NCBI GenBank assembly: GCA_017445315.1
Contig: JAFSUI010000017.1
Span: 1-48,952 of the forward strand
From: Bacillota bacterium
Lineage (GTDB): Bacteria > Bacillota > Clostridia > Peptostreptococcales > Anaerovoracaceae
DNA: 48,952 bases
Direction of reading: 5' to 3'
Position 1 is the first letter of the stretch; each line of letters starts with the position of its first letter. The notes beneath the pieces are model-generated. The model searched no databases and had not been told where the DNA came from. It saw only the letters and a list, made by a program, of their open reading frames with translations. The position numbers and the translations under genes are program-made. Positions 1 through 48,952 of the stretch are shown piece by piece.

Positions 1-170
1 TCTATTTTTCCTACTTTTACCTTTCCGTTCAACTCTCCGGAAAGCTCCTCGATTACAGGTGCCATCATCTTGCATGGACCGCACCATGTTGCCCAAAAGT
101 CTATTACTACGGGCATATCGGAATTGAGAACCTCTGCCTCAAAGTTTTCTTTGGTTATTGTAAGTGCCAT
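1..170 (-). CDS. trxA: Thioredoxin, N-terminal part (cut by window edge)
   Basis: General protein disulfide reductase of the cytoplasm. The 56 codons visible begin at an ATG read on the minus strand at 170-168, preceded by an AAAGGAG ribosome binding site (about 175-183). The redox motif WCGPCK is complete, with the two cysteines at residues 30 and 33, after the typical beta-strand VVIDFWAT. The visible end ([10 protein letters not shown]...) matches the helix that follows the active site in classical thioredoxins. The gene is divergent from the lipoprotein gene at 290. The C-terminal half lies outside the window, so fusion or truncation cannot be judged. Confidence 0.95.
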
Positions 171-255
171 TTCATACTCCTTTACTAAACAATTAAAGTT
201 CTTGTCTTATTTATACCTCTTTTTTGCGTATAAAAACTATTTTTTCTCTGAAATA

Positions 256-264
256 TGGTAAAAT
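256..264 (+). promoter_or_regulatory. Extended -10 element for the barnase lipoprotein gene
   Basis: TGG followed by TAAAAT (259-264) gives an extended -10. No good -35 is seen 17-18 bases upstream. The predicted start of transcription near 271 would leave a leader of about 20 bases that still contains the GGGAGG ribosome binding site at 277-282. Position and spacing fit; the call rests on motif only. Confidence 0.4.
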
Positions 265-289
265 ATTTAGGATATTGGGAGGAAATATT

Positions 290-943
290 TTGAAACCAAG
301 ATTTGATAAAAATAGCATAATTACGCGGATAATTATACTTTTGCTCATAATAGTGCTCACGGCGGCTTTTTTACCGGGATGTAAGAAGAAAGCCGCTGAG
401 CCTGTCAATGAGCCCATACCGCAGAGCGAGCAAGTGCAGGAGGAGGCAGCCAATTCTGAGCAGGAGGAGGCAGCTAATTCTGAGCGAGAGGAAGCAGCTA
501 ATTCTGAGCAAGAGCCTGCTGAGGAGCCTATAGAGGAGGACGCTCCCGCGAGTGGCGAGGATTTAGTAGAGCCGGAAGAAGCCGAAGAGCTTCCTGAGGA
601 TGGCTGGTATTATAGCAAGGACGAAGTAGCGCTATATATACATATTTATGGGCATCTCCCTGAGAACTTTATTACAAAAAAAGAAGCTCGTAAGCTTGGT
701 TGGTCGGGTGGCTCTGTTGAAAAATATGCTGAGGGCAAGGCTATCGGAGGCGATGAGTTTGGAAACTACGAAGGAAACCTACCTGAAAAAAACGGCAGAA
801 CTTATTGGGAATGTGATATAGACACAAATGGCAAAAAGAGCCGTGGAGCAAAGAGAATAGTTTTCTCAAGCGACGGACTCATATACTATACGGATGATCA
901 CTACGAAACCTTTAAACTCCTATACGGGGAGGAGGACGCTTGA
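290..943 (+). CDS. Barnase-like guanyl-specific ribonuclease, exported lipoprotein
   Basis: 217 residues from a TTG start at 290, chosen because GGGAGG sits 7 bases upstream and the product then begins with a basic N-region, a long hydrophobic core and a lipobox LPGC (Cys31). An in-frame ATG at 224 lies upstream of the -10 and has no ribosome binding site. After Cys31 comes an acidic spacer with three 8-residue repeats (residues about 51-74), then a barnase domain (about 106-213). Aligned by eye with Bacillus amyloliquefaciens barnase, the counterparts of Lys27 (K130), catalytic Glu73 (E174), Arg83 (R185), Arg87 (R189) and catalytic His102 (H204) are present; the Arg59 position is Tyr160. The expected activity is RNA cleavage after G, on the outer face of the membrane. 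The stop codon overlaps the start of the barstar-fusion gene (TGATG), so the pair is translationally coupled. Family call is strong; the biological target is unknown. Confidence 0.9.
   Translation: MKPRFDKNSIITRIIILLLIIVLTAAFLPGCKKKAAEPVNEPIPQSEQVQEEAANSEQEEAANSEREEAANSEQEPAEEPIEEDAPASGEDLVEPEEAEELPEDGWYYSKDEVALYIHIYGHLPENFITKKEARKLGWSGGSVEKYAEGKAIGGDEFGNYEGNLPEKNGRTYWECDIDTNGKKSRGAKRIVFSSDGLIYYTDDHYETFKLLYGEEDA
440..511 (+). repeat. Three tandem 24-bp repeats in the barnase spacer
   Basis: Units 440-463, 464-487 and 488-511 encode EEAANSEQ, EEAANSER and EEAANSEQ. They differ at only a few bases. They lengthen the acidic linker between the lipid anchor and the RNase domain, and copy number could vary between strains by slippage. 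Confidence 0.9.
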
Positions 944-2493
944 TGAGAGTAATATCAATAAATATATCAAAAGTGAGAACAAAGAAAGAACTCATGGAAC
1001 TTATCGGGCAGGAGCTAGGCTTTCCTGAGTATTACGGAAAGAATCTGGATGCGCTCTATGATTGCTTAAGCGAGATAGGTGAGCCTACGGAGGTAGCGTT
1101 TGAGGGGGTTTGCGAATGCAGGGAATCATCCGCCGAGATGGAGGAATACCTGGAGAAACTCGCGAGGGTTCTAGAAGATGCTACGGGTGAGAATGAGAAT
1201 CTTACCTTTGTCATGATAGAAGATAGCGAAGAACTTGATACCCTAATTGGGAGAATGGAAAATATGGAAACTATTAGATTTAGAGATTTGAACAAGCAGT
1301 ACGAGATTCTTGGAGAAGCAATCGATGCTGCTATAAAGAACGTCTGTGAAGAAGGTGTCTTTATCGGCGGAACTCAGGTAAAGGAACTTGAGAGAGAGCT
1401 TGCTGAATACGTAGGCGTTAAACATTGCATCACATGTGCAAACGGCACCGATGCGCTTGTTATACCCCTTATGTGCTGGGGTATAGGGCCGGGAGATGCA
1501 GTGTTTGTTCCTGATTTTACATTCTTTGCGACAGGTGAAGCTGTTTCTTTCTGCGGAGCGACACCGATATTTATAGATGTTTCTCCGGATACATTTAATA
1601 TTGAGCCTAGACTCTTGGAAAGAGAGATAAAGAGGGTAAAGGAAGAAGGCATCCTAAATCCTAGGGCAGTAATCGCAGTGGACCTCTTTGGTCTTCCTGC
1701 AAGCATGAATGTCATCAAGGAGATATGCGAAGAAAACGGATTATATCTACTTGAGGATGGCGCCCAAGGTTTCGGCGGATCAATAAATGGAAAGATGGCA
1801 TGTAGCTTCGGAGATATCTCCACAACGTCATTCTTCCCTGCAAAGCCGCTTGGCTGCTATGGTGATGGCGGAGCTATCTTTACGGATAACGACGAATGGG
1901 CGGATTTAATTCGCTCAATATGCGTTCACGGAAAAGGAGATAACAAATACGATAACGTCAGAATCGGAATGAACTCAAGAATTGACTCAATTCAGGCTGC
2001 GATTCTAAGGGTTAAGCTTAATGCATTTATTGAAAATGAACTTGAGCAAGTAAACCGCGTGGCCGATGCATACCGCTTTGCGTTCAAACTGAGATTCGGT
2101 GAGGGAACCTCACGTCTATGGCTCCCGAGAATTCCGGATGGATATAGATCGAGCTATGCGCAGTTTACGCTTAGGTTCGCCGACGAGGAGACGAGAGATG
2201 GCGTAAAGGCTTATCTTGATGAAAAGGGAATCCCCACGGTCGTATATTATCCAAAGCCGATGCATTCTCAGGAGGCATTTGGGGTTAGCGATGAATATGG
2301 CCTTGACGTTACGGTTTCAAACAAGCTTTCAAAGACGGTCCTCTCCCTTCCGATGGGACCATATGTGGAGGCAAAGGCGATTACGATGGTTGTGGATTCA
2401 ATCTGGGAATACTTCGGAAAACCAGAGGCTGAGGAGAATCTAAATCCATTCCCGGTTTTCGACACGAGCAATACGGAATATGGTACTAGATAA
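943..2493 (+). CDS. Barstar-like inhibitor fused to DegT/DnrJ/EryC1-type PLP aminotransferase
   Basis: 516 residues from ATG 943, whose A is the last base of the upstream stop codon; GGGGAGGAGG lies just upstream. Residues 1-95 are barstar-like: PEYYGKNLDALYDC (28-41) carries the counterparts of barstar Asp35 (D36) and Asp39 (D40), which fill the barnase active site. Residues from about 107 are a complete fold-type I sugar aminotransferase of the DegT/DnrJ/EryC1/StrS family: substrate/PLP loop ANGTDAL, acidic LEDGAQ, Schiff-base Lys301 in FFPAKPLGCYGDGG and the dimer-contact segment MNSRIDSIQAA. Such enzymes transaminate keto-sugars on nucleotide sugars, but no nucleotide-sugar genes are near. 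An in-frame ATG at 1264, 9 bases after a GGGAG (1249-1253), could start the aminotransferase alone. The barstar part should protect against the neighbouring RNase; the reason for the fusion is unknown. Confidence 0.88.
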   Translation: MRVISINISKVRTKKELMELIGQELGFPEYYGKNLDALYDCLSEIGEPTEVAFEGVCECRESSAEMEEYLEKLARVLEDATGENENLTFVMIEDSEELDTLIGRMENMETIRFRDLNKQYEILGEAIDAAIKNVCEEGVFIGGTQVKELERELAEYVGVKHCITCANGTDALVIPLMCWGIGPGDAVFVPDFTFFATGEAVSFCGATPIFIDVSPDTFNIEPRLLEREIKRVKEEGILNPRAVIAVDLFGLPASMNVIKEICEENGLYLLEDGAQGFGGSINGKMACSFGDISTTSFFPAKPLGCYGDGGAIFTDNDEWADLIRSICVHGKGDNKYDNVRIGMNSRIDSIQAAILRVKLNAFIENELEQVNRVADAYRFAFKLRFGEGTSRLWLPRIPDGYRSSYAQFTLRFADEETRDGVKAYLDEKGIPTVVYYPKPMHSQEAFGVSDEYGLDVTVSNKLSKTVLSLPMGPYVEAKAITMVVDSIWEYFGKPEAEENLNPFPVFDTSNTEYGTR

Positions 2494-2505: not shown

Positions 2506-2535
2506 TTGAAGGAAAGTATGCCAATATGATATAAT
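2506..2535 (+). promoter_or_regulatory. Promoter of the pyrH-polC operon
   Basis: TTGAAG (2506-2511), an 18-base spacer and a perfect TATAAT (2530-2535) preceded by TGA, i.e. an extended -10. The predicted transcript starts near 2542, about 30 bases before pyrH. It separates the housekeeping operon from the barnase/barstar cassette upstream. Confidence 0.8.
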
Positions 2536-8729: not shown

Positions 8730-11700
8730 ATGCGCGAAATATTTGAGAAACTGATTGACTGGAATGAAATAAAAGAGAGCCTTAATGAGGAACCATCTTT
8801 TCTCGTTAAGGACATTTTGATTAGAAAAGATGAGAGCGTTCTTGAGATTTGTATTGCTCTCAATTTTCTTATGCCTGAAAAAAGTGAAAAGATAATAAAG
8901 GCTACAATTTTGAACAAGTATCCGACATTAAAGAATGTGGTTTTTAAATATGATCATGTTAATTCTGAGAATGCTGAGAAGGAGCCTGCTGAAACTAATA
9001 ACAAGCCCCTCACGCCTGATGAGAAGAAAGCGAAGCTAAAGGAAGAAAAGGAAAAGGCGGAAGAAAAGAAAAAGAAGAATGCCGCCTGGAAGAAGCGTAG
9101 ATCCACTATGCGTGCGCGTGAGCTCCCGGTAATAGGAAAGGCGATAATGGGTGGAAAAGCTATTCCTGAAGTACCTGTTCCTATTTCTGAGATTTCACCT
9201 GAGGAAGAGAGTATTGTAACAGCGGGAATCGTGTTCTCTATGGACTCAAGAGTCATCAAGAGCGACAGCGTTCTTGCTATGCTTTACATCACCGACAAAA
9301 AGAGCAGCATAGTTCTTAAGACGTTTATTAGCCAGAAAAAATGGGACGAGATTTGCGAGCATATTTCAATCGGTGATTATATCAAGGTAAAAGGTCAACC
9401 AGAGATAGATAGATATGAGAACGCGCTTGTCGTCATGATAGACGCAATTGAAAAGGGAACTGTTGAGAAGAGAAAGGACAATTATCCCGGAAAGCATAGA
9501 GTTGAACTCCATTGTCATACAAAGATGAGCCGCCTGGATGGCTTAAACGATATTGATACAATTGTAAAAACGGCAGCCATGTGGAATCAGCCAGCTGTCG
9601 CAATTACGGATCACGGTGTGGTTCAGAGTTTCCCTGATGCAGCATCTCTCGCAAAGAAAACAGGCGTGAAAGTCATTTACGGAATGGAGGGCTATGTCTT
9701 TGATGATTCGGATTGCATCCGAGAGGACGGCTCTATTGATTATAAGAAGAATCCAACCTATCATATAATCCTTCTTGCATCCACACAGGAGGGAATTACC
9801 AATCTTTATAGGCTGGTTTCATTTTCACATATTGACTATTTCTATAAACGCCCAAGGCTTCCAAAGTCAATTATCTCAAAATATCGTGAAGGTCTGATAA
9901 TTGGTTCTGCTTGTGAGGCAGGTGAAGTCTATCGCGCAGTTGCTGAAGGAAAGAGCGACGAAGAACTGGATAAAATCGCTTCCTTCTATGATTATCTAGA
10001 AATTCAGCCTCTAATTAACAATCAATTCATGATTGATAAGGGTGAGGTAAGAGGAAAAGAAGAACTTCGCGAGTTTAACCGCAGAATAATTAACTGCGGA
10101 GACAGGCTCGGCAAGCTTACCGTCGCAACGACGGATGCACATTATGATGAACCGGAATCCGCAATATTTAGAAATATAATTATGGGCGGTATGGGATATA
10201 GCGATGCCGAAAACGGACAAGGACTATATTTAAGAACCACTGAAGAGATGCTTGAAGAGTTTTCATATCTTGGAGAGGATTTGGCATACGAGGTTGTAGT
10301 TGAGAATACCAATGCAATCGCAGATATGATAGCGGACGGAATTAGACCTGTTCCGGAGGAGAAATGTCCGCCGACGATTCCAAACGCCGACAATATCCTA
10401 AGAGAAAGCTGCATGGAAAGGGCTCGCGAACTGTACGGAGAGAATATTCCTCCGCAGATTGAGGAGAGACTTAATACCGAGCTTGATTCTATTATAGGAA
10501 ACGGTTATTCCGTAATGTATGTTTCCGCTCAGATGTTGATCAATAAATCCAGGGAAGATGGATATCCTGTTGGATCGCGTGGATCTGTAGGTTCGTCCTT
10601 TGCTGCAACCATGGCTGGAGTTACCGAGGTAAATCCTTTGGATCCGCATTATGTATGCCCGGATTGCAAGCATTTTGAATTTGGTGACAGAAAGGAATAC
10701 GACTGTGGCGTTGATATGCCACCCAAAAAATGTCCTGACTGTGGCGCAGATATGATTAGAGACGGATATACGATTCCTTTTGCTACATTCCTTGGGTTTG
10801 ACGGAACAAAGGAACCGGATATAGACCTTAATTTTGCAGGTGAGTATCAGGCGACCGCTCATAAATATGTTGAGCATATCTTTGGGGCCAAGAATATCTA
10901 TAAGGCGGGTACTGTTTCCAAACTGGAAGAAAAAACGGCCTATAGATATCTTAGAAAATACTGTGAGCTCACGGGAGATGCCTTCCCGAAATATGAGGAG
11001 GAGCGTCTCGCAAAGGGCTGCATGGGTGTAAAGAGTACCACGGGCCAGCACCCCGGAGGTATGGTAATAGTTCCGGATGATCGCGAGATATATGAGTTCT
11101 GTCCGGTACAGCATCCTGCGAACAAGGATATAGATATAATCACAACGCATTTTGATTATCATAAGATAGAAAAGAATCTTCTTAAGCTTGATATACTCGG
11201 GCATACCGGACCGACAATGCAGAGATATTTATACGAGCTTACGGGAGTTAATCCTATAGACATCGATATGAACGATCAAAAGGTCATCAGCATTTTTAGT
11301 GGACCTGAGGCCCTTGATATCAAAGATCCTGAGTATCAATTCACTGACGGAACCTACGGAATACCTGAGTTCGGTACATCCTTTGTTAGGGGAATGCTGC
11401 AGGAGATAAAGCCAAAGAAAATCGGCGATCTCGTACGAATTGCAGGCTTCTCACACGGAGAAGATGTATGGCAGAACAATGCGCAGGATTATGTAAAGAG
11501 CGGCGTTGCTACCATGAACGAGGTAATCTCCACTCGTGACGACATAATGAACTATCTCATGCTTATGGGCCTTAAGAATATAGATGCGTTCTCTATCATG
11601 GAAACTGTCAGAAAGAAGGATAGATTCCTAAATGATGAACAGAAGGCGCTTATGAGATCGCATAATGTACCTGAATGGTATATAGATTCGTGCGATAAGA

Positions 11701-12287
11701 TTAAGTATATGTTCCCTAGAGCTCATGCCGCGGCATATGTAATCAATAGCTTTAGAATGTCTTGGTATAAGGTCTATTATCCACAGGCATTCTATGCCGC
11801 ATACTTCACTGAGAATGCGAGTGGATTTGATCCTGAAATCATATTGAAAGGGCCGGGTGCGTGCTTTGATGTGGTTAGAAGAATAAGGAGCCATGGTGGG
11901 GATGTCACAGAGGAGTCCGATGACGAAGGCATGATGGCTGAACAAAAGGACGAGAGCACCGATAAGGACAAGAGAACACTTAAATGCTGCGAAGTGGCCT
12001 ATGAAATGTATGCAAGGGGCTTTGATTTTAAGGCGCCGAAGCTTGGGGCATCTCATGCAAGAAGGTTCAGAGTTGAAGGAAACTCGCTTAGACTTCCGTA
12101 TGTAGCGCTTGAAGGTGTGGGCCTAGCTGCTGCAAATGCTATTTACGAAGCTTATGAAGATAAACCGTTCTTTACTCTGGAGGACGCAATCGGGAGGGCA
12201 AAGATAAATAAGACTGCCGTTGATGCGCTTAAAAACTACGGCGTGTTCGATGGTCTTCCGGAAACGGATCAGGTAAGCTTTTTCTAA
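8730..12287 (+). CDS. polC: DNA polymerase III alpha subunit, PolC type, lacking the exonuclease domain
   Basis: 1185 residues; typical PolC is about 1430-1450. Order seen: short N-terminal domain (1-90), charged Lys/Glu linker (90-130), OB-fold region (about 150-250), PHP domain starting with H261-C-H263 and TDHGV, palm/fingers with GSRGSVGSSF, a four-Cys zinc knuckle (CPDC...CPDC, about 640-680), catalytic aspartates D697 and D699 (PDIDLNF) and D821 (LLKLDILG), then helix-hairpin-helix and tail. In ordinary PolC the DEDD 3'-5' exonuclease (FVVFDVETTGL...) is inserted within PHP; here the sequence goes from YVFDDSD to YHIILLA across about 15 residues (near 9690-9765) with no exonuclease. No clear Shine-Dalgarno precedes ATG 8730. 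It replicates the chromosome, but proofreading must come from elsewhere or be absent. Confidence 0.96.
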   Translation: MREIFEKLIDWNEIKESLNEEPSFLVKDILIRKDESVLEICIALNFLMPEKSEKIIKATILNKYPTLKNVVFKYDHVNSENAEKEPAETNNKPLTPDEKKAKLKEEKEKAEEKKKKNAAWKKRRSTMRARELPVIGKAIMGGKAIPEVPVPISEISPEEESIVTAGIVFSMDSRVIKSDSVLAMLYITDKKSSIVLKTFISQKKWDEICEHISIGDYIKVKGQPEIDRYENALVVMIDAIEKGTVEKRKDNYPGKHRVELHCHTKMSRLDGLNDIDTIVKTAAMWNQPAVAITDHGVVQSFPDAASLAKKTGVKVIYGMEGYVFDDSDCIREDGSIDYKKNPTYHIILLASTQEGITNLYRLVSFSHIDYFYKRPRLPKSIISKYREGLIIGSACEAGEVYRAVAEGKSDEELDKIASFYDYLEIQPLINNQFMIDKGEVRGKEELREFNRRIINCGDRLGKLTVATTDAHYDEPESAIFRNIIMGGMGYSDAENGQGLYLRTTEEMLEEFSYLGEDLAYEVVVENTNAIADMIADGIRPVPEEKCPPTIPNADNILRESCMERARELYGENIPPQIEERLNTELDSIIGNGYSVMYVSAQMLINKSREDGYPVGSRGSVGSSFAATMAGVTEVNPLDPHYVCPDCKHFEFGDRKEYDCGVDMPPKKCPDCGADMIRDGYTIPFATFLGFDGTKEPDIDLNFAGEYQATAHKYVEHIFGAKNIYKAGTVSKLEEKTAYRYLRKYCELTGDAFPKYEEERLAKGCMGVKSTTGQHPGGMVIVPDDREIYEFCPVQHPANKDIDIITTHFDYHKIEKNLLKLDILGHTGPTMQRYLYELTGVNPIDIDMNDQKVISIFSGPEALDIKDPEYQFTDGTYGIPEFGTSFVRGMLQEIKPKKIGDLVRIAGFSHGEDVWQNNAQDYVKSGVATMNEVISTRDDIMNYLMLMGLKNIDAFSIMETVRKKDRFLNDEQKALMRSHNVPEWYIDSCDKIKYMFPRAHAAAYVINSFRMSWYKVYYPQAFYAAYFTENASGFDPEIILKGPGACFDVVRRIRSHGGDVTEESDDEGMMAEQKDESTDKDKRTLKCCEVAYEMYARGFDFKAPKLGASHARRFRVEGNSLRLPYVALEGVGLAAANAIYEAYEDKPFFTLEDAIGRAKINKTAVDALKNYGVFDGLPETDQVSFF

Positions 12288-26410: not shown

Positions 26411-26439
26411 TTGAAAATGGCATTTTTACATGATAGAAT
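26411..26439 (+). promoter_or_regulatory. Promoter of the trigger-factor-like lipoprotein gene
   Basis: TTGAAA (26411-26416), 17-base spacer ending TGA, TAGAAT (26434-26439). The start of transcription would be near 26446, at the base of the next hairpin. Confidence 0.75.
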
Positions 26440-26443
26440 TAGT

Positions 26444-26471
26444 CGTTGTCCTCAGGGCAACGAGCTTTTTT
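26444..26471 (+). terminator. Terminator-like hairpin at the 5' end of the lipoprotein transcript
   Basis: CGTTGTCC (26444-26451) pairs with GGGCAACG (26455-26462), one G-U pair, loop TCA, then AGC and six T. Its place between promoter and gene means it is either an attenuator or a 5'-protective stem; it could also end read-through from the Cys-rich gene. Confidence 0.65.
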
Positions 26472-26513
26472 ATTAAAGAATATGAGACCAAAGTAAAGAG
26501 AGGGTTTTGGAAA

Positions 26514-27854
26514 ATGAAAAAGAAATTGGGAATAGTTTTTCTCGCATTGGTACTTATGCTTACTCTTATCACGGGATGTGGGAAAAAGACAGAAGAAGTA
26601 GTTCCCTATAATTACGATCTAACAGAATACGTTAAGATTCCGGATTATCATGATCTTCCGTTCATGACTAAGACAGCTGAGATAACAGACGAAGACGTAG
26701 AAAAAGAAATTCAGTCTTTGCTGGAATATGCATCCACAGTTGAGAACTCAACAACAGGTGTTGTTGAAGATGGCGATACGATTAATATTGCCTTTGCCGG
26801 AAAAATAGACGGAGAACTTTTTGAGGGAGGATCTTCTGAGTCCTACGATCTCACTGTTGGCACAACCTCAATGATAGACGGATTTGTTGAAGGCTTAATC
26901 GGAAAGAACGTTGGAGAGACTGTTACATTGGATCTCCAGTTCCCTGAAGAATATCATAGCGCTGAGGTTGCAGGTAAGCCGGTAGTATTTGAGGTTACCA
27001 TCAACAGCAAGAAGATAGTAACAAAGCCGGAATTCAACGATGCATTTGTTCAGGCCAATTCCGAATTCCAAACAACGGATGAATTCAGAACAAACCTCAA
27101 GGAAACTCTTACAAAGCAGGCACAGGACAGCATTGACGCAGAAGTTAAAGATGCTCTATGGAGTGTAATTCTTAATGGTGCAGAAGCAGTTCAGTATCCT
27201 GAGGAAGAACTTGCTACAGCTACAACAGCTGCTGAAGAAATGGAAGCTGAGTATAAGGCTCAGGCAACGCTTTACGGAATGGAATGGGAACAATTCCTCG
27301 AGCTTCTCATGGGAACTGATGAAGCTGGCTTTGCGGAAATGAAAGAAGAATACGCAAAGAATATGGTTCTCTCCGATATGGTTCTTTATAAGATGGCAAG
27401 AGATGAGGGTGTCACAGTAAGCCAGAGTGAGTTTGAAGAAAAGGTAAAGGAAATACTTGCTGCCAACAACTTCACAGAGGAAAGTTTCCAATCATCATAT
27501 GGAACAACCATCTATGAATTCGCGGAGGATAACGGATGGAAGACAAGCTTCCTCTTGGAAAGACTTATGGACAAGGTCATTGAATATGGTCATGAAGTAA
27601 GTGAAGAAGAGTTCAACGAATACGTAGATCATGAGCTTGGACGTGAGCAAGACCATGATCATGAGCACGAGGAAGCAGAAGAGGGTGAAGAAGTAGAAGA
27701 AGGTTCCGAAGGTGAGGGCGAAGCATCTGAAACAGAAGAAGGTGCTGCTGAAACCGAGGAAGGATCTTCAGAGACCGAAGAAGGAGCATCTGAAGAAGGA
27801 GCATCTGAAGAAGGCTCTGAGCAGTCCGAAGGCGAAGGAAACGGTGGCAATTAA
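26514..27854 (+). CDS. Lipoprotein with trigger-factor-like FKBP and chaperone domains
   Basis: 446 residues from ATG 26514 (AGAGAGGG upstream). A lipoprotein signal ends in LITGC (Cys22). Residues about 50-170 form an FKBP-type prolyl isomerase like that of trigger factor (EDGDTINIAFAGKIDGELFEGG...VGTTSMIDGFVEGLIG), and 175-370 match the trigger factor/SurA-like C-terminal arm. The ribosome-binding domain of trigger factor is absent. A His/acid stretch (HDHEHEE) leads into a Glu/Ser/Gly-rich tail of about 70 residues. It probably folds exported proteins at the outer membrane face, a role parallel to PrsA. The cytoplasmic tig is at 47627. A single-gene transcript. Confidence 0.88.
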   Translation: MKKKLGIVFLALVLMLTLITGCGKKTEEVVPYNYDLTEYVKIPDYHDLPFMTKTAEITDEDVEKEIQSLLEYASTVENSTTGVVEDGDTINIAFAGKIDGELFEGGSSESYDLTVGTTSMIDGFVEGLIGKNVGETVTLDLQFPEEYHSAEVAGKPVVFEVTINSKKIVTKPEFNDAFVQANSEFQTTDEFRTNLKETLTKQAQDSIDAEVKDALWSVILNGAEAVQYPEEELATATTAAEEMEAEYKAQATLYGMEWEQFLELLMGTDEAGFAEMKEEYAKNMVLSDMVLYKMARDEGVTVSQSEFEEKVKEILAANNFTEESFQSSYGTTIYEFAEDNGWKTSFLLERLMDKVIEYGHEVSEEEFNEYVDHELGREQDHDHEHEEAEEGEEVEEGSEGEGEASETEEGAAETEEGSSETEEGASEEGASEEGSEQSEGEGNGGN

Positions 27855-32367: not shown

Positions 32368-35115
32368 ATGAATAAAAAACCGGAGCATGTAGAAAGACGA
32401 TATAGGAATATAGTTGCGGTTATCGTTGTGCTAATGATTATTCTTGCACTACGTCTTTTTGTGCTTACCGTCGTTCAAAAGAGCCAGTGGAATGCTGCGG
32501 CTTCATATCAGAATACAAAAACACTCTATTCTTCTTCTCCGAGAGGAAATATTTACGATAGAAACGGGAATCTTCTTGCGGGCAACAGGCAGGTTTTCAG
32601 CGTTGTATTTAACGCAAGTAATCTAACAACCGAAGATATAAACAATTCATCATTGACACTTATCAACAAATTGATTGAGAACGAAGACGAGTATATAGAT
32701 GACTTCCCAATCAAATTTGATGAGTGGGGGCAGATGTATTATACGTATGACGAGCAGCTGGAAGAGTGGCTTGCAGAAAACGGATATGAGAAGGATACAA
32801 CTGCTGCCGAGGTTTTTGAAACAACTTGCAGATACTATAATCTGGATCCTAACGCAGATAGATATGAGGCAATGAGTACGCTCAGAGAGCGTCATAATAT
32901 ATATCTTCCTATCAACGTTAGAAATATGCGTTTTACCTATGTAGAAAGCAAAGAATATTTCTGGAACAAGTTTGGAATATACGGAGTGGAATCCGAAAAT
33001 GGATTATCTGCCAAGGAATGCTTTGCGATGCTCAGAGAGAATTATTTGATAGATGAAACGCTGAGTGATTCCGATGCAAGAAAAATCTTTATAGTAAGAA
33101 ATAAGATTGCCTCTAACAGCTTCCAAAAATATATTCCGCTCACTATTGCGAACGATATAAGCGATATTTCCGTAGTTTTCTTGGAGGAGAGAAATCTTCC
33201 GGGAGTTGAGGTTGAGTCCTCCACGATAAGATATTATCCTTATGGATCTACCGCATGCCACTTAATCGGATATCTTGGTTATATCTCCGAGGGTGAGGTT
33301 GACTATTATGTGAACCAAAAGGGATATAACGTAAGCGAAATGGTCGGTAAAGCCGGAGTTGAATCCTCAATGGAGGACAAACTCCACGGTGTTCCCGGTG
33401 TAACAGAGGTTCAGATAAACAGCACCGGAGAATATGTTGCTACACTAAGCGAACAAAAGGGAAGTACGGGAAAGGATGTCTATCTAACAATAGATATAGA
33501 GCTTCAGAAGGCGACCCAGGATGCACTTAGCTCTCTGGTTAAATCAAATCCAAACAGCAGAATCGGAGCAGCTGTAATGCTAGATGTTGCAACAGGGGAT
33601 GTCCTTGCGATGGATAGTTATCCGGGTTTTGACCTTAATACATTTGCGGATGGAATAACCGACGAGGAATGGGCATCTGTTCAGCGTGAAAACCCGAGAG
33701 ATCCGGTTTCTCCTGCACCGCTATATAACAACGCTACTATGTCTGCATTTGCGCCAGGATCTACGTTTAAGCCTCTAACGGCAATAGCTGCATTAAAGAA
33801 GGGGCTTGACCCGGATCACTGGATAGTTGATGAGGGACATATTGAAATCGGAGATCTTGTCTTTGGTTGCTATGCGTGGAATGACCATCAGGGAACACAC
33901 GGCACGCAGGATCTGGAATGGGGAATGTGTAATTCTTGCAACTACTATTTTGCCTGCATAGCGACGGGATATGACTGGGGAAACAAATCATCTCTTGGTT
34001 ATTCAATATCCATTGATGATATAATTGAAGAAGCAAGAAAATATGGTCTATACGAGAAAACGGGAATAGAAATACCGGAGGTAAGCACGAGACCGGTTTC
34101 CGCTGAAACAAAGCTAAACAATTATAGATATTCTGCATGGAACGGTCTATATGCAAAGGCGAGCGAGTTCTTCCCGCAATCCGTATATAGAAACAATGAA
34201 GAACTTGAGAAGAACATTGATTTAATTGTTAGCTGGATTGAGGAGAATCCTTCCTATCTTGACCTGATAGATCGCTTGATTGCGGAAACGGATGTAATTC
34301 CGGAGAAGGCGGAAGACTGCGCCGCAATGGTCAAATTTGACTATTTCAACATGGCGGAATGGACGACCTACGACGTATTCAATACATCCATTGGACAGGG
34401 TGACAATATCTATACTCCTGTGCAGATGGCCAATTATGTCGCAACCATAGGCAATAACGGTTTTAGAAACAAGGTTAGCATAATATATGGTGTAGAAGGA
34501 GAAGGAAAAACCGTAAAGCCGGAGCCATTCAATACTGAGACGAGTGAGTATGAAATTCAGTCGGTGCTCAGGAGTATGAGAAGGGTATGTACCAACGGTA
34601 CTCTCAAGACCGCATTTGGAGACTACCCGATAGAAGTTGTCGGAAAGACCGGTACTGCTGAATATCAGAGTATTAAGCAGCCTGATGACGAGGCGGAGTA
34701 TATAAAGGCGCATCTTCATTTAATCAATGCCAGAGCAGGAACAGATATTTCCTGGGAAGAGGTTGAAGAGAAGATTAACGAGCTTATGAAGTCCGATGCC
34801 AATGAGTATCCAACGGCAAGCGCCACTGCGGATGAGGCTCTTATCACACTTAGTGATTTTAAGATAACGCAGAGTATGATAGATGCATATAAAGAAGGGT
34901 ATGAGCCGTTTTCAATGGTTGTTGCTCTTGCTCCTTATGACAACCCCGAGGTTGCGGTAGTTGTACAGCTCCCAGAGGCCGGATCAGGTCCTGATGCATC
35001 CGGAGCAGTAAAGGAAATGCTTGATGCATACTTTAAATTGAACGAAGAAAAAGACGATGATTCCGATGTTGTCTTTGTTGAAACCGACGACAATGGCGAG
35101 AATATAATGCAGTAA
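32368..35115 (+). CDS. mrdA: Elongation-specific penicillin-binding protein 2, enlarged
   Basis: 915 residues, longer than the usual 600-700. It has an N-terminal membrane helix (about 13-33), a dimerization/pedestal domain, and a transpeptidase with S465-x-x-K468, S523-C-N525 and K760-T-G762. It cross-links peptidoglycan with RodA as polymerase. Extra sequence lies in the pedestal (about 90-230) and around the active site: the SxN-to-KTG distance is about 235 residues, against about 155 in E. coli PBP2, with another acidic insert after KTG. The tail is acidic. Confidence 0.95.
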   Translation: MNKKPEHVERRYRNIVAVIVVLMIILALRLFVLTVVQKSQWNAAASYQNTKTLYSSSPRGNIYDRNGNLLAGNRQVFSVVFNASNLTTEDINNSSLTLINKLIENEDEYIDDFPIKFDEWGQMYYTYDEQLEEWLAENGYEKDTTAAEVFETTCRYYNLDPNADRYEAMSTLRERHNIYLPINVRNMRFTYVESKEYFWNKFGIYGVESENGLSAKECFAMLRENYLIDETLSDSDARKIFIVRNKIASNSFQKYIPLTIANDISDISVVFLEERNLPGVEVESSTIRYYPYGSTACHLIGYLGYISEGEVDYYVNQKGYNVSEMVGKAGVESSMEDKLHGVPGVTEVQINSTGEYVATLSEQKGSTGKDVYLTIDIELQKATQDALSSLVKSNPNSRIGAAVMLDVATGDVLAMDSYPGFDLNTFADGITDEEWASVQRENPRDPVSPAPLYNNATMSAFAPGSTFKPLTAIAALKKGLDPDHWIVDEGHIEIGDLVFGCYAWNDHQGTHGTQDLEWGMCNSCNYYFACIATGYDWGNKSSLGYSISIDDIIEEARKYGLYEKTGIEIPEVSTRPVSAETKLNNYRYSAWNGLYAKASEFFPQSVYRNNEELEKNIDLIVSWIEENPSYLDLIDRLIAETDVIPEKAEDCAAMVKFDYFNMAEWTTYDVFNTSIGQGDNIYTPVQMANYVATIGNNGFRNKVSIIYGVEGEGKTVKPEPFNTETSEYEIQSVLRSMRRVCTNGTLKTAFGDYPIEVVGKTGTAEYQSIKQPDDEAEYIKAHLHLINARAGTDISWEEVEEKINELMKSDANEYPTASATADEALITLSDFKITQSMIDAYKEGYEPFSMVVALAPYDNPEVAVVVQLPEAGSGPDASGAVKEMLDAYFKLNEEKDDDSDVVFVETDDNGENIMQ

Positions 35116-47626: not shown

Positions 47627-48952
47627 ATGAAGACAACTTTTATTTCCAAAGAGAACAATGTAGCAAAATTCACCATCGAGTACACTGCTGAAGAATTTGA
47701 AGCGGCAGTAATTAAGGTTTATCAGAAGAACAAGGATAAATTCAATATAGATGGATTCAGAAAAGGCAAAGCACCGCGTAGCATAATAGAAAAGCATTAT
47801 GGAGAAGGTGTTTTCTTTGAGGATGCAATTAACGAGCTTCTTGGAACCGGATATCCGGATGCTATAAAGGAACTCGATCTTGAAGTAATAGATTATCCAA
47901 AGGTAGATACAGGTGAAGTTAAGAAGGGCGAGCCGCTTAAGGTAGATATAACCGTTGACGTATATCCAAGAGTAGAAGTTAAGGATTATAAGAACCTTAC
48001 TGTTGAACAGGTTACGCCGGAAGTTGATGAGGAACAGGTTACGAGAAGACTTGAAATGGAGCAGAAGAAGGTTGCTCGTTCAGTTCCTGTTGATAGAGAA
48101 GCTAAGAATGGCGATACCATTACGCTCGACTATGCAGGCTTTGTAGGCGAAGAACAGTTTGAAGGCGGAACAGCCGAGAATCAGAAGCTTACGCTTGGTT
48201 CCGGACAGTTCATACCGGGATTTGAAGACCAGCTAATCGGTGCAAAGGCAGGCGAAGAAGTAGATGTAAAGGTTACATTCCCGGAAGAATACCATGCTGA
48301 AAATCTCGCAGGAAAAGATGCCGTTTTCCACTGCAAAGTCAACGAAGTAAGAGAAGAGCAGCTTCCTGAACTTGACGATGAATTTGCAAAGGATGTAAGC
48401 GATTTTGATACTCTAGAGGAAATGAAAAACGATATTAAGGCTAAACTTCTTGAGACAAGCGAAGTTAGATCCCTTAATGAAGCAAAGGACAATTTGGTAG
48501 AACAGATTTATGAGAACAATAAATTTGACCCACCACAGTCAATGGTTCAGGATGAGCTTTCAAGAGCACTCTCCGAGAGAGACCAGCAGCTCAGATATCA
48601 GGGAATTACACTTCAGCAGTTCCTCCAGTTCACAGGAGTAAAACTTGAGGACATGATGAACGAGATGAAGCCTGAGATTGAGCAGCGTGTAGCAAGCAGA
48701 ATCCTGCTCCGTTCAATAGCAGAGCAAGAAAAGCTTGAAGTGACCGATGAAGATCTCGATAAGGAACTCACTCGCATGGCGGAGCTTTACTCATCTCCTG
48801 AAAAGAAGTACGACGCTGAGGAAATGAAGAATCTTCTTGGAACAGAGCTTGAGAGCTTCAAGAAGGACATCATAATCACAAAGACTATTGACTATCTCTA
48901 CGACAACGCAAAGGTTAAGATGGTCAAGGCCGAAGAAAAGAAGGATAAGAAA
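47627..48952 (+). CDS. tig: Trigger factor (3' end beyond the window)
   Basis: 442 codons to the window edge without a stop; the family is about 430-450 residues, so nearly complete. An N-terminal ribosome-binding domain with GFRKGKAPR (about 45-53) is followed by an FKBP-type isomerase domain (about 162-245; GDTITLDYAGFVGEEQFEGG) and the C-terminal chaperone arm. It folds nascent chains at the ribosome exit. AGGAGG precedes ATG 47627. clpP/clpX commonly follow but are out of view. Confidence 0.96.
   Translation, partial: MKTTFISKENNVAKFTIEYTAEEFEAAVIKVYQKNKDKFNIDGFRKGKAPRSIIEKHYGEGVFFEDAINELLGTGYPDAIKELDLEVIDYPKVDTGEVKKGEPLKVDITVDVYPRVEVKDYKNLTVEQVTPEVDEEQVTRRLEMEQKKVARSVPVDREAKNGDTITLDYAGFVGEEQFEGGTAENQKLTLGSGQFIPGFEDQLIGAKAGEEVDVKVTFPEEYHAENLAGKDAVFHCKVNEVREEQLPELDDEFAKDVSDFDTLEEMKNDIKAKLLETSEVRSLNEAKDNLVEQIYENNKFDPPQSMVQDELSRALSERDQQLRYQGITLQQFLQFTGVKLEDMMNEMKPEIEQRVASRILLRSIAEQEKLEVTDEDLDKELTRMAELYSSPEKKYDAEEMKNLLGTELESFKKDIIITKTIDYLYDNAKVKMVKAEEKKDKK

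Follow-up and report, generated by a model that had tools for sequence, protein, structure and literature searches.

We observed that the analysed window, a stretch of 48,952 nucleotides from a Bacillota bacterium of the family Anaerovoracaceae (contig JAFSUI010000017.1), carries a barnase-type RNase gene directly followed by a reading frame that joins a barstar domain to a DegT-type aminotransferase (Table 1). The RNase ORF matches Pfam Ribonuclease (PF00545) at 5.6e-21 and the PDB barnase structure 1bse at 1.7e-26. Its E, R and H columns, which we take to be the catalytic residues of barnase-type RNases, were preserved in 12 of 12 sequences, the window's among them. The lipobox pattern was present in 7 of these 12 RNases, so lipoprotein export is not general; the window RNase carries an export signal by reading, which argues against the class of type II addiction modules. 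The RNase stop and the fusion start overlap by one base (TGATG; CTTGATGAGA at 939-948), with GGAGGAGG immediately 5' of the fusion start, which bears out the earlier note's proposal that the fusion is translationally coupled to the RNase gene. Such tight coupling is not universal, as a 48-base gap separates the two genes in the relative G010. That genome has trxA (−) before barnase (+) as in the window, and G007 shows the mirror arrangement. The genes 3' of the fusion, named by reading, are pyrH, frr, uppS, cdsA and dxr, and a sequence resembling the window's promoter-like element ahead of pyrH is visible in G012 and G003.

Table 1 Features of the barnase/barstar-aminotransferase locus and its immediate neighbours, in window positions.
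Feature	Position	Strand	Remarks
trxA, 5' part (thioredoxin, WCGPC)	3..170	-	truncated by contig start; neighbour, outside the system; named by reading the translation
Barnase-type RNase	224..943	+	likely start TTG 290 after GGAGG; lipobox LPGC and acidic linker; RNase domain about 638-919
Barstar (immunity) domain	943..1233	+	residues 1-97 of the fusion; Pfam 4.8e-19; PDB barstar 1a19 5.6e-9
Linker	1234..1263	+	residues 98-107; GGGAG at 1249-1253, 10 bases 5' of the in-frame ATG 1264
DegT/WbpE-type aminotransferase domain	1264..2400	+	from about residue 108; PLP lysine 301; Pfam 4.3e-93
C-terminal segment (tail), 30 residues (487-516)	2401..2490	+	mostly without counterpart in 10 aligned stand-alone DegT proteins
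Promoter-like TTGAAG-18-TATAAT	2506..2535	+	between fusion and pyrH (2573); scan sites no more numerous than in shuffles

Elsewhere in the window, further proteins drew notice for their domain matches. PolC normally has an exonuclease inserted in its PHP domain; in the PolC-type DNA polymerase III at 8730-12287 (1185 aa) the PHP domain match is uninterrupted, and no exonuclease domain was found by Pfam at E 1e-5. There are two trigger-factor-like proteins (26430-27854 and 47627-48952), the first without a Trigger_N match at E 1e-5. In the penicillin-binding protein at 32368-35115 (915 aa), 177 profile positions of the dimerisation domain are spread over 305 residues and the transpeptidase domain match is split in two stretches, as if insertions were present.

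The fusion ORF (940/943-2493) is a single frame without an internal stop. Read from 943, it encodes a protein of 516 residues, in which a short linker connects barstar to an entire DegT/DnrJ-type aminotransferase that ends in the C-terminal tail; on the 517-residue reading, the Barstar match covers residues 2-87 and the DegT_DnrJ_EryC1 match residues 125-488 (profile positions 4-359 of 360). These two full Pfam domains in one frame confirm that the barstar is the N-terminal module of a complete PLP enzyme, as first noted from the sequence. Aspartates D35 and D39, which by this numbering are presumably the RNase-facing residues of barstar, align with 1a19, and the position of E76 is not decided by that alignment. 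Because the inhibitor is no small single-domain protein and carries a full enzyme, we file the pair as a variant working like the barnase-barstar pair rather than as an ordinary member. The closest solved structures to the DegT domain were PDB 4qgr (2.5e-108) and WbpE 3nyu (1.6e-89). With 10 stand-alone DegT proteins and their 101 invariant columns as reference, the window domain keeps 97 of the 101 positions including the PLP lysine, the other four being conservative changes. With a WbpE-type enzyme joined in full, the fusion product of this species most likely has two functions, and would combine immunity with a probably still active aminotransferase. A loop around LRFGEG was dropped as a fusion-specific insertion, given that a stand-alone DegT fragment in G011 has an insertion of the same length. 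The GGGAG motif ahead of ATG 1264, near the start of stand-alone DegT proteins, raises a further reading in which free DegT is made from this internal start besides the fusion, itself then partly incidental; but this is one short motif in a region deleted in G012 and G003, and we regard two products as very improbable.

The barstar-DegT fusion was found in 3 of 13 genomes of the genus, namely the window's own (G000), G012 and G003. In the latter two, barstar is in frame with the same DegT lineage, ahead of pyrH and frr. The G012 fusion is located inside an 87-kb contig; in G003 a contig end cuts the barstar and the RNase lies on another contig, so the RNase-barstar order there is not seen. An artefact of assembly or binning could be suspected from the position of the window fusion near a contig end, but the same fusion lineage recurs in three assemblies, once deep inside a contig. 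As it stands before pyrH in two other assemblies it is not an assembly join, and we give an artefact a practically negligible probability. Neither observation that the earlier note had named as damaging, an assembly join or absence from all relatives, was thus made: three assemblies share the fusion, and of the 12 other genomes in the genus two carry it. When 14 DegT rows were placed in a tree, the three fused proteins split from the 11 stand-alone rows (support 96/92); the next branch, weakly placed (88/90), is a stand-alone DegT fragment from another genome of the genus, G011. This separation makes one fusion event the simplest account. An ordinary barstar was seen elsewhere in the genome in G002 and G011, and the G007 barstar runs off its contig.

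The aminotransferase has decayed in both relatives. The DegT parts of G012 and G003 keep 18 of the 101 invariant positions each, and 50 and 49 invariant columns, respectively, are deleted, the lysine region among them; a full domain with its PLP lysine is present in the window protein and absent from these two. The remnant is nevertheless under purifying selection, strongest in the tail. Between G012 and G003, the DegT-derived part gave a pN of 0.194 and a pS of 0.716 (omega 0.097 over 269 codons), and omega was 0.061 over its last 145 codons, values that are rough because pS is near saturation. When neutral drift was run up to the observed third-position divergence of 0.535, the two copies together acquired 14.8 stops on average, and both stayed open in 0 of 400 runs. 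In the tail, 20 of 30 residues are identical between the window and G012 and 27 of 30 between G012 and G003 (pS 0.75, pN 0.04). A scan of 258 loci for the tail motif matched only in the stretches of G000, G012 and G003. Regulatory DNA was rejected as the cause of this conservation, as the synonymous sites of the tail have diverged as much as elsewhere, which points to a constraint on the protein and not to the nearby pyrH promoter. Our main argument for a role of the tail, which could be any role, is that neither remnant lineage took the simple escape of a stop codon after barstar.

To place the fusion among barstars in general, we read the barstar rows of the window's GTDB family, where a search of 349 genomes returned 60 rows in 59 genomes. 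All 15 rows with frames of at least 140 aa were read, and frames below 140 aa were scored unfused by length. Ten of the 15 carry a C-terminal partner behind barstar and two have a partner in front. The other three were rejected as spurious, since an ordinary barstar is there merely extended upstream, as in G293, G344 and G116. The ten fusions represent eight partner kinds, most of them in one genome only: DegT (G000, G012, G003), a Cys/Met PLP enzyme (G010), IspD (G001), a nitroreductase (G234), a carbonic anhydrase (G247), a BspA-type LRR protein (G214), DUF1653 (G104) and, behind a barstar below the Pfam cut-off, GNAT (G078). Left out of this count were G345 and G343, with an FMN reductase in front, and the contig-edge G342. 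In these three (L077, L078, L082) the FMN reductase precedes a different-looking barstar, with Pfam shown for L078; in G343 and G345 the RNase gene lies on a separate contig, and the contig start truncates L082.

Outside the family, a C-terminal partner was seen in 3 of 149 barstar rows (G059, G470 and G830), 17 of the 18 rows of at least 140 aa having been read and G679:C1:785067 left out. Rows with an N-terminal partner (G523, G1268, G1229, G969, G1007 and perhaps G564 and G599) were not counted. G059 and G470 (L193, L194) have the barstar after barnase and share one C-terminal domain, about 110 residues long, of no recognised kind. Among 80 loci picked by likeness to the window barstar, three have a C-terminal fusion of at least 60 residues, G012 being one. 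This set includes a Saccharofermentans MAG with barstar, a periplasmic-binding domain and GGDEF, which the G830 partner resembles, and a Ruminococcaceae MAG with barstar and an M32 carboxypeptidase; L158 was not counted, its 76 extra residues being an insertion after a short match. Motifs that we take to mark active sites were present in the partners where checked: the Cys/Met enzyme has its lysine, the carbonic anhydrase CSDSR and HTRC, and the M32 carboxypeptidase HEGGH, and GGDEF is there as well.

The RNase adjoins the fused barstar in G000, G012, G010, G001, G234, G104, G078, G059 and G470, and also in L102 and, by the RNase end only, in L132. A search for PF00545 in 20 genomes gave matches in 19, and none in G247 (71% complete). 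The RNase lies 18 kb from the barstar in G214 and on another contig in G830, and the gene 5' of the fused barstar in G214 and G247 encodes another membrane protein, not barnase. Barstar fusions thus also occur without an adjacent RNase, as G214, G830 and G247 show, and the question raised earlier, whether barnase always precedes the fusion, has a divided answer: it is adjacent in most cases and distant, on another contig or not found in these three. In G214 (L074, 3196-5385) barstar is followed by a stretch that reads like a signal peptide and by BspA leucine-rich repeats, so that a presumably cytosolic inhibitor is joined to a surface-type protein. In G234 (L073/L207) the RNase domain forms the C-terminus of a 654-aa protein encoded directly 5' of barstar::nitroreductase.

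Gene order was compared with names by reading. In G010 the order is trxA, barnase, barstar::Cys/Met enzyme, two genes, trxB and pyrH, and in G001 it is tsf, barnase, barstar::IspD, trxB, one gene and pyrH. In G005 and G009, a stand-alone IspD-type gene stands in series before trxB and pyrH, and no barstar was found there. Within the same neighbourhood, barstar is thus joined to different local genes.

The partners bear on what the fused enzyme might be for. A functional coupling, in which the aminotransferase makes a glycan, or senses metabolism, and thereby regulates the RNase at the surface or the level of immunity, draws on the structural match to WbpE, whose family we take to act in surface-glycan synthesis, and on the barstar::IspD-type gene of G001, two genes before a gene that reads as glycerophosphotransferase-like. 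A DegT relative in G010 sits with Wbp-like genes (by reading an oxidoreductase, an acetyltransferase and a UDP-sugar dehydrogenase), parts of which set also adjoin the DegT relatives in G030 and G013. However, the WbpB-like protein of G010 as query found homologs of 35-36% in G000 and G012, none in G003 and one of 72% in G001, G000, G012 and G003 being 77-85% complete; the only candidate for a WbpB pathway partner in G000 (77% complete) is thus a 35% homolog. The catalytic core is also gone in two relatives, and we know of no glycan role for the other barstar partners. We consider such a coupling improbable. Two options of the earlier note are likewise not supported: a glycan controlling the toxin is at odds with a partner that is not constant and with loss of the catalytic lysine region in G012 and G003 while the pair persists (in G003 on two contigs), and the same varying partners and lost core object to an immunity level tuned by enzyme metabolism, at least as far as catalysis is concerned. 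On viral contigs, a single DegT query gave no match, and a DegT alignment as query gave 18 DegT relatives; two distant barstars were also seen on such contigs.

Fusion behind an indispensable immunity gene could instead secure a needed enzyme gene. The fused IspD is the sole IspD match found in G001 (78% complete), and the fusion protein as query in G000 finds itself only, with no second DegT found. Against this anchoring, the enzyme has decayed in G012 and G003, and G010 has another full-length copy of its fused Cys/Met enzyme; we consider anchoring quite unlikely. The related suggestion that the RNase/inhibitor pair is an addiction module for the enzyme gene is not supported, the enzyme having been lost in two of three carriers.

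We quantified the excess of fusions in the family. Barstar with a C-terminal partner accounts for 10 of 60 rows in the family vs 3 of 149 outside (Fisher 2.8e-4). As a control we used PhdYeFM antitoxins (PF02604) in 345 genomes of the same family, taking the best 150 rows and counting long frames by length alone: frames of at least 200 aa made up 11 of 60 barstar rows (two with the partner in front) vs 3 of 150 PhdYeFM rows (Fisher 8.6e-5). Counted as captures, 8 of 58 barstar vs 3 of 150 listed PhdYeFM rows gave 0.002. All these p values are optimistic, since the rows are related. That long frames occur among other small antitoxins too, in those 3 of 150 listed rows by frame length, and that the partners resemble arbitrary neighbours, would suit pure accident, with stop codons lost in compact genomes and a C-terminal part without a selected role. 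This reading is already strained by the drift runs and the tail, and both the protein-level purifying selection on remnant and tail and the fusion excess over the control speak against it. We think it unlikely.

We favour, at a probability of roughly 60%, a reading in which an indispensable immunity gene has repeatedly captured the gene lying downstream of it, yielding a two-function protein whose enzyme may die while the remnant stays selected within the immunity protein. The barstar gene would have captured its downstream gene through loss of a stop codon. By analogy with their families, the RNase would be synthesised in the cytosol and reach the surface as an exported lipoprotein, and the barstar domain would keep the unexported RNase inactive in the cytosol. 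As the immunity part must stay while the RNase is present, the fused enzyme would ride along and could lose its catalytic core; as several unrelated partners have joined barstar, this reading requires no chemistry that connects the sugar with the toxin. The simplest reason for the retention of remnant and tail would be that the immunity protein became dependent on them to be stable or to assemble. On this reading the fusion would inhibit the RNase, the remnant would fold and the barstar would need it. More tentatively, barstar may be a capture platform that entrenches the genes fused behind it, the fused domain being remodelled into a non-catalytic part of immunity and the barstar-pseudoDegT of the relatives forming a new kind of immunity protein that requires its dead domain and tail.

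These genomes offer a natural series, in which one immunity domain has various enzymes as partners, some of them in a shared chromosomal neighbourhood of a single genus, and in which one fused enzyme can be traced from intact to dead across three genomes. Two questions thereby become testable: how a domain can turn indispensable even without the activity it once had, and whether toxin-immunity genes influence what becomes of the genes next to them. The series likewise carries a warning for annotation, as a barstar-enzyme fusion need not imply a toxin pathway. The suggestion that this pairing was undescribed fits the literature searched, mostly titles and abstracts, in which no description of barstar fused to an enzyme was found, although this is weak evidence of absence.

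In comparison with known systems, the pair shares with Bacillus amyloliquefaciens barnase-barstar the RNase and inhibitor families, adjacent genes with the toxin first, and the catalytic columns; it differs by the lipobox and the long acidic linker of its RNase and by the enzyme at the C-terminus of its inhibitor. The DegT domain resembles the UDP-sugar aminotransferase WbpE (PDB 3nyu, 3nu7) over nearly its whole length and in the PLP lysine, but it stands behind a barstar, has an extra C-terminal tail and no adjoining Wbp-like genes, and its catalytic core is deleted in two relatives. In the passages on barstar of a study of polymorphic toxin systems, barnase-barstar neighbours are termed simple gene pairs and no barstar fusion is mentioned (PMC3482391). 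The polyimmunity proteins described in the parts of that study consulted likewise join immunity domains to other domains, but these are further immunity domains or repeats, not housekeeping enzymes (PMC3482391). Finally, the synthetic entanglement of relE inside ilvA also ties a toxin-system gene physically to a metabolic gene, and differs in being engineered, in using another reading frame, in involving the toxin rather than the inhibitor and in aiming at circuit stability (PMC10359631).
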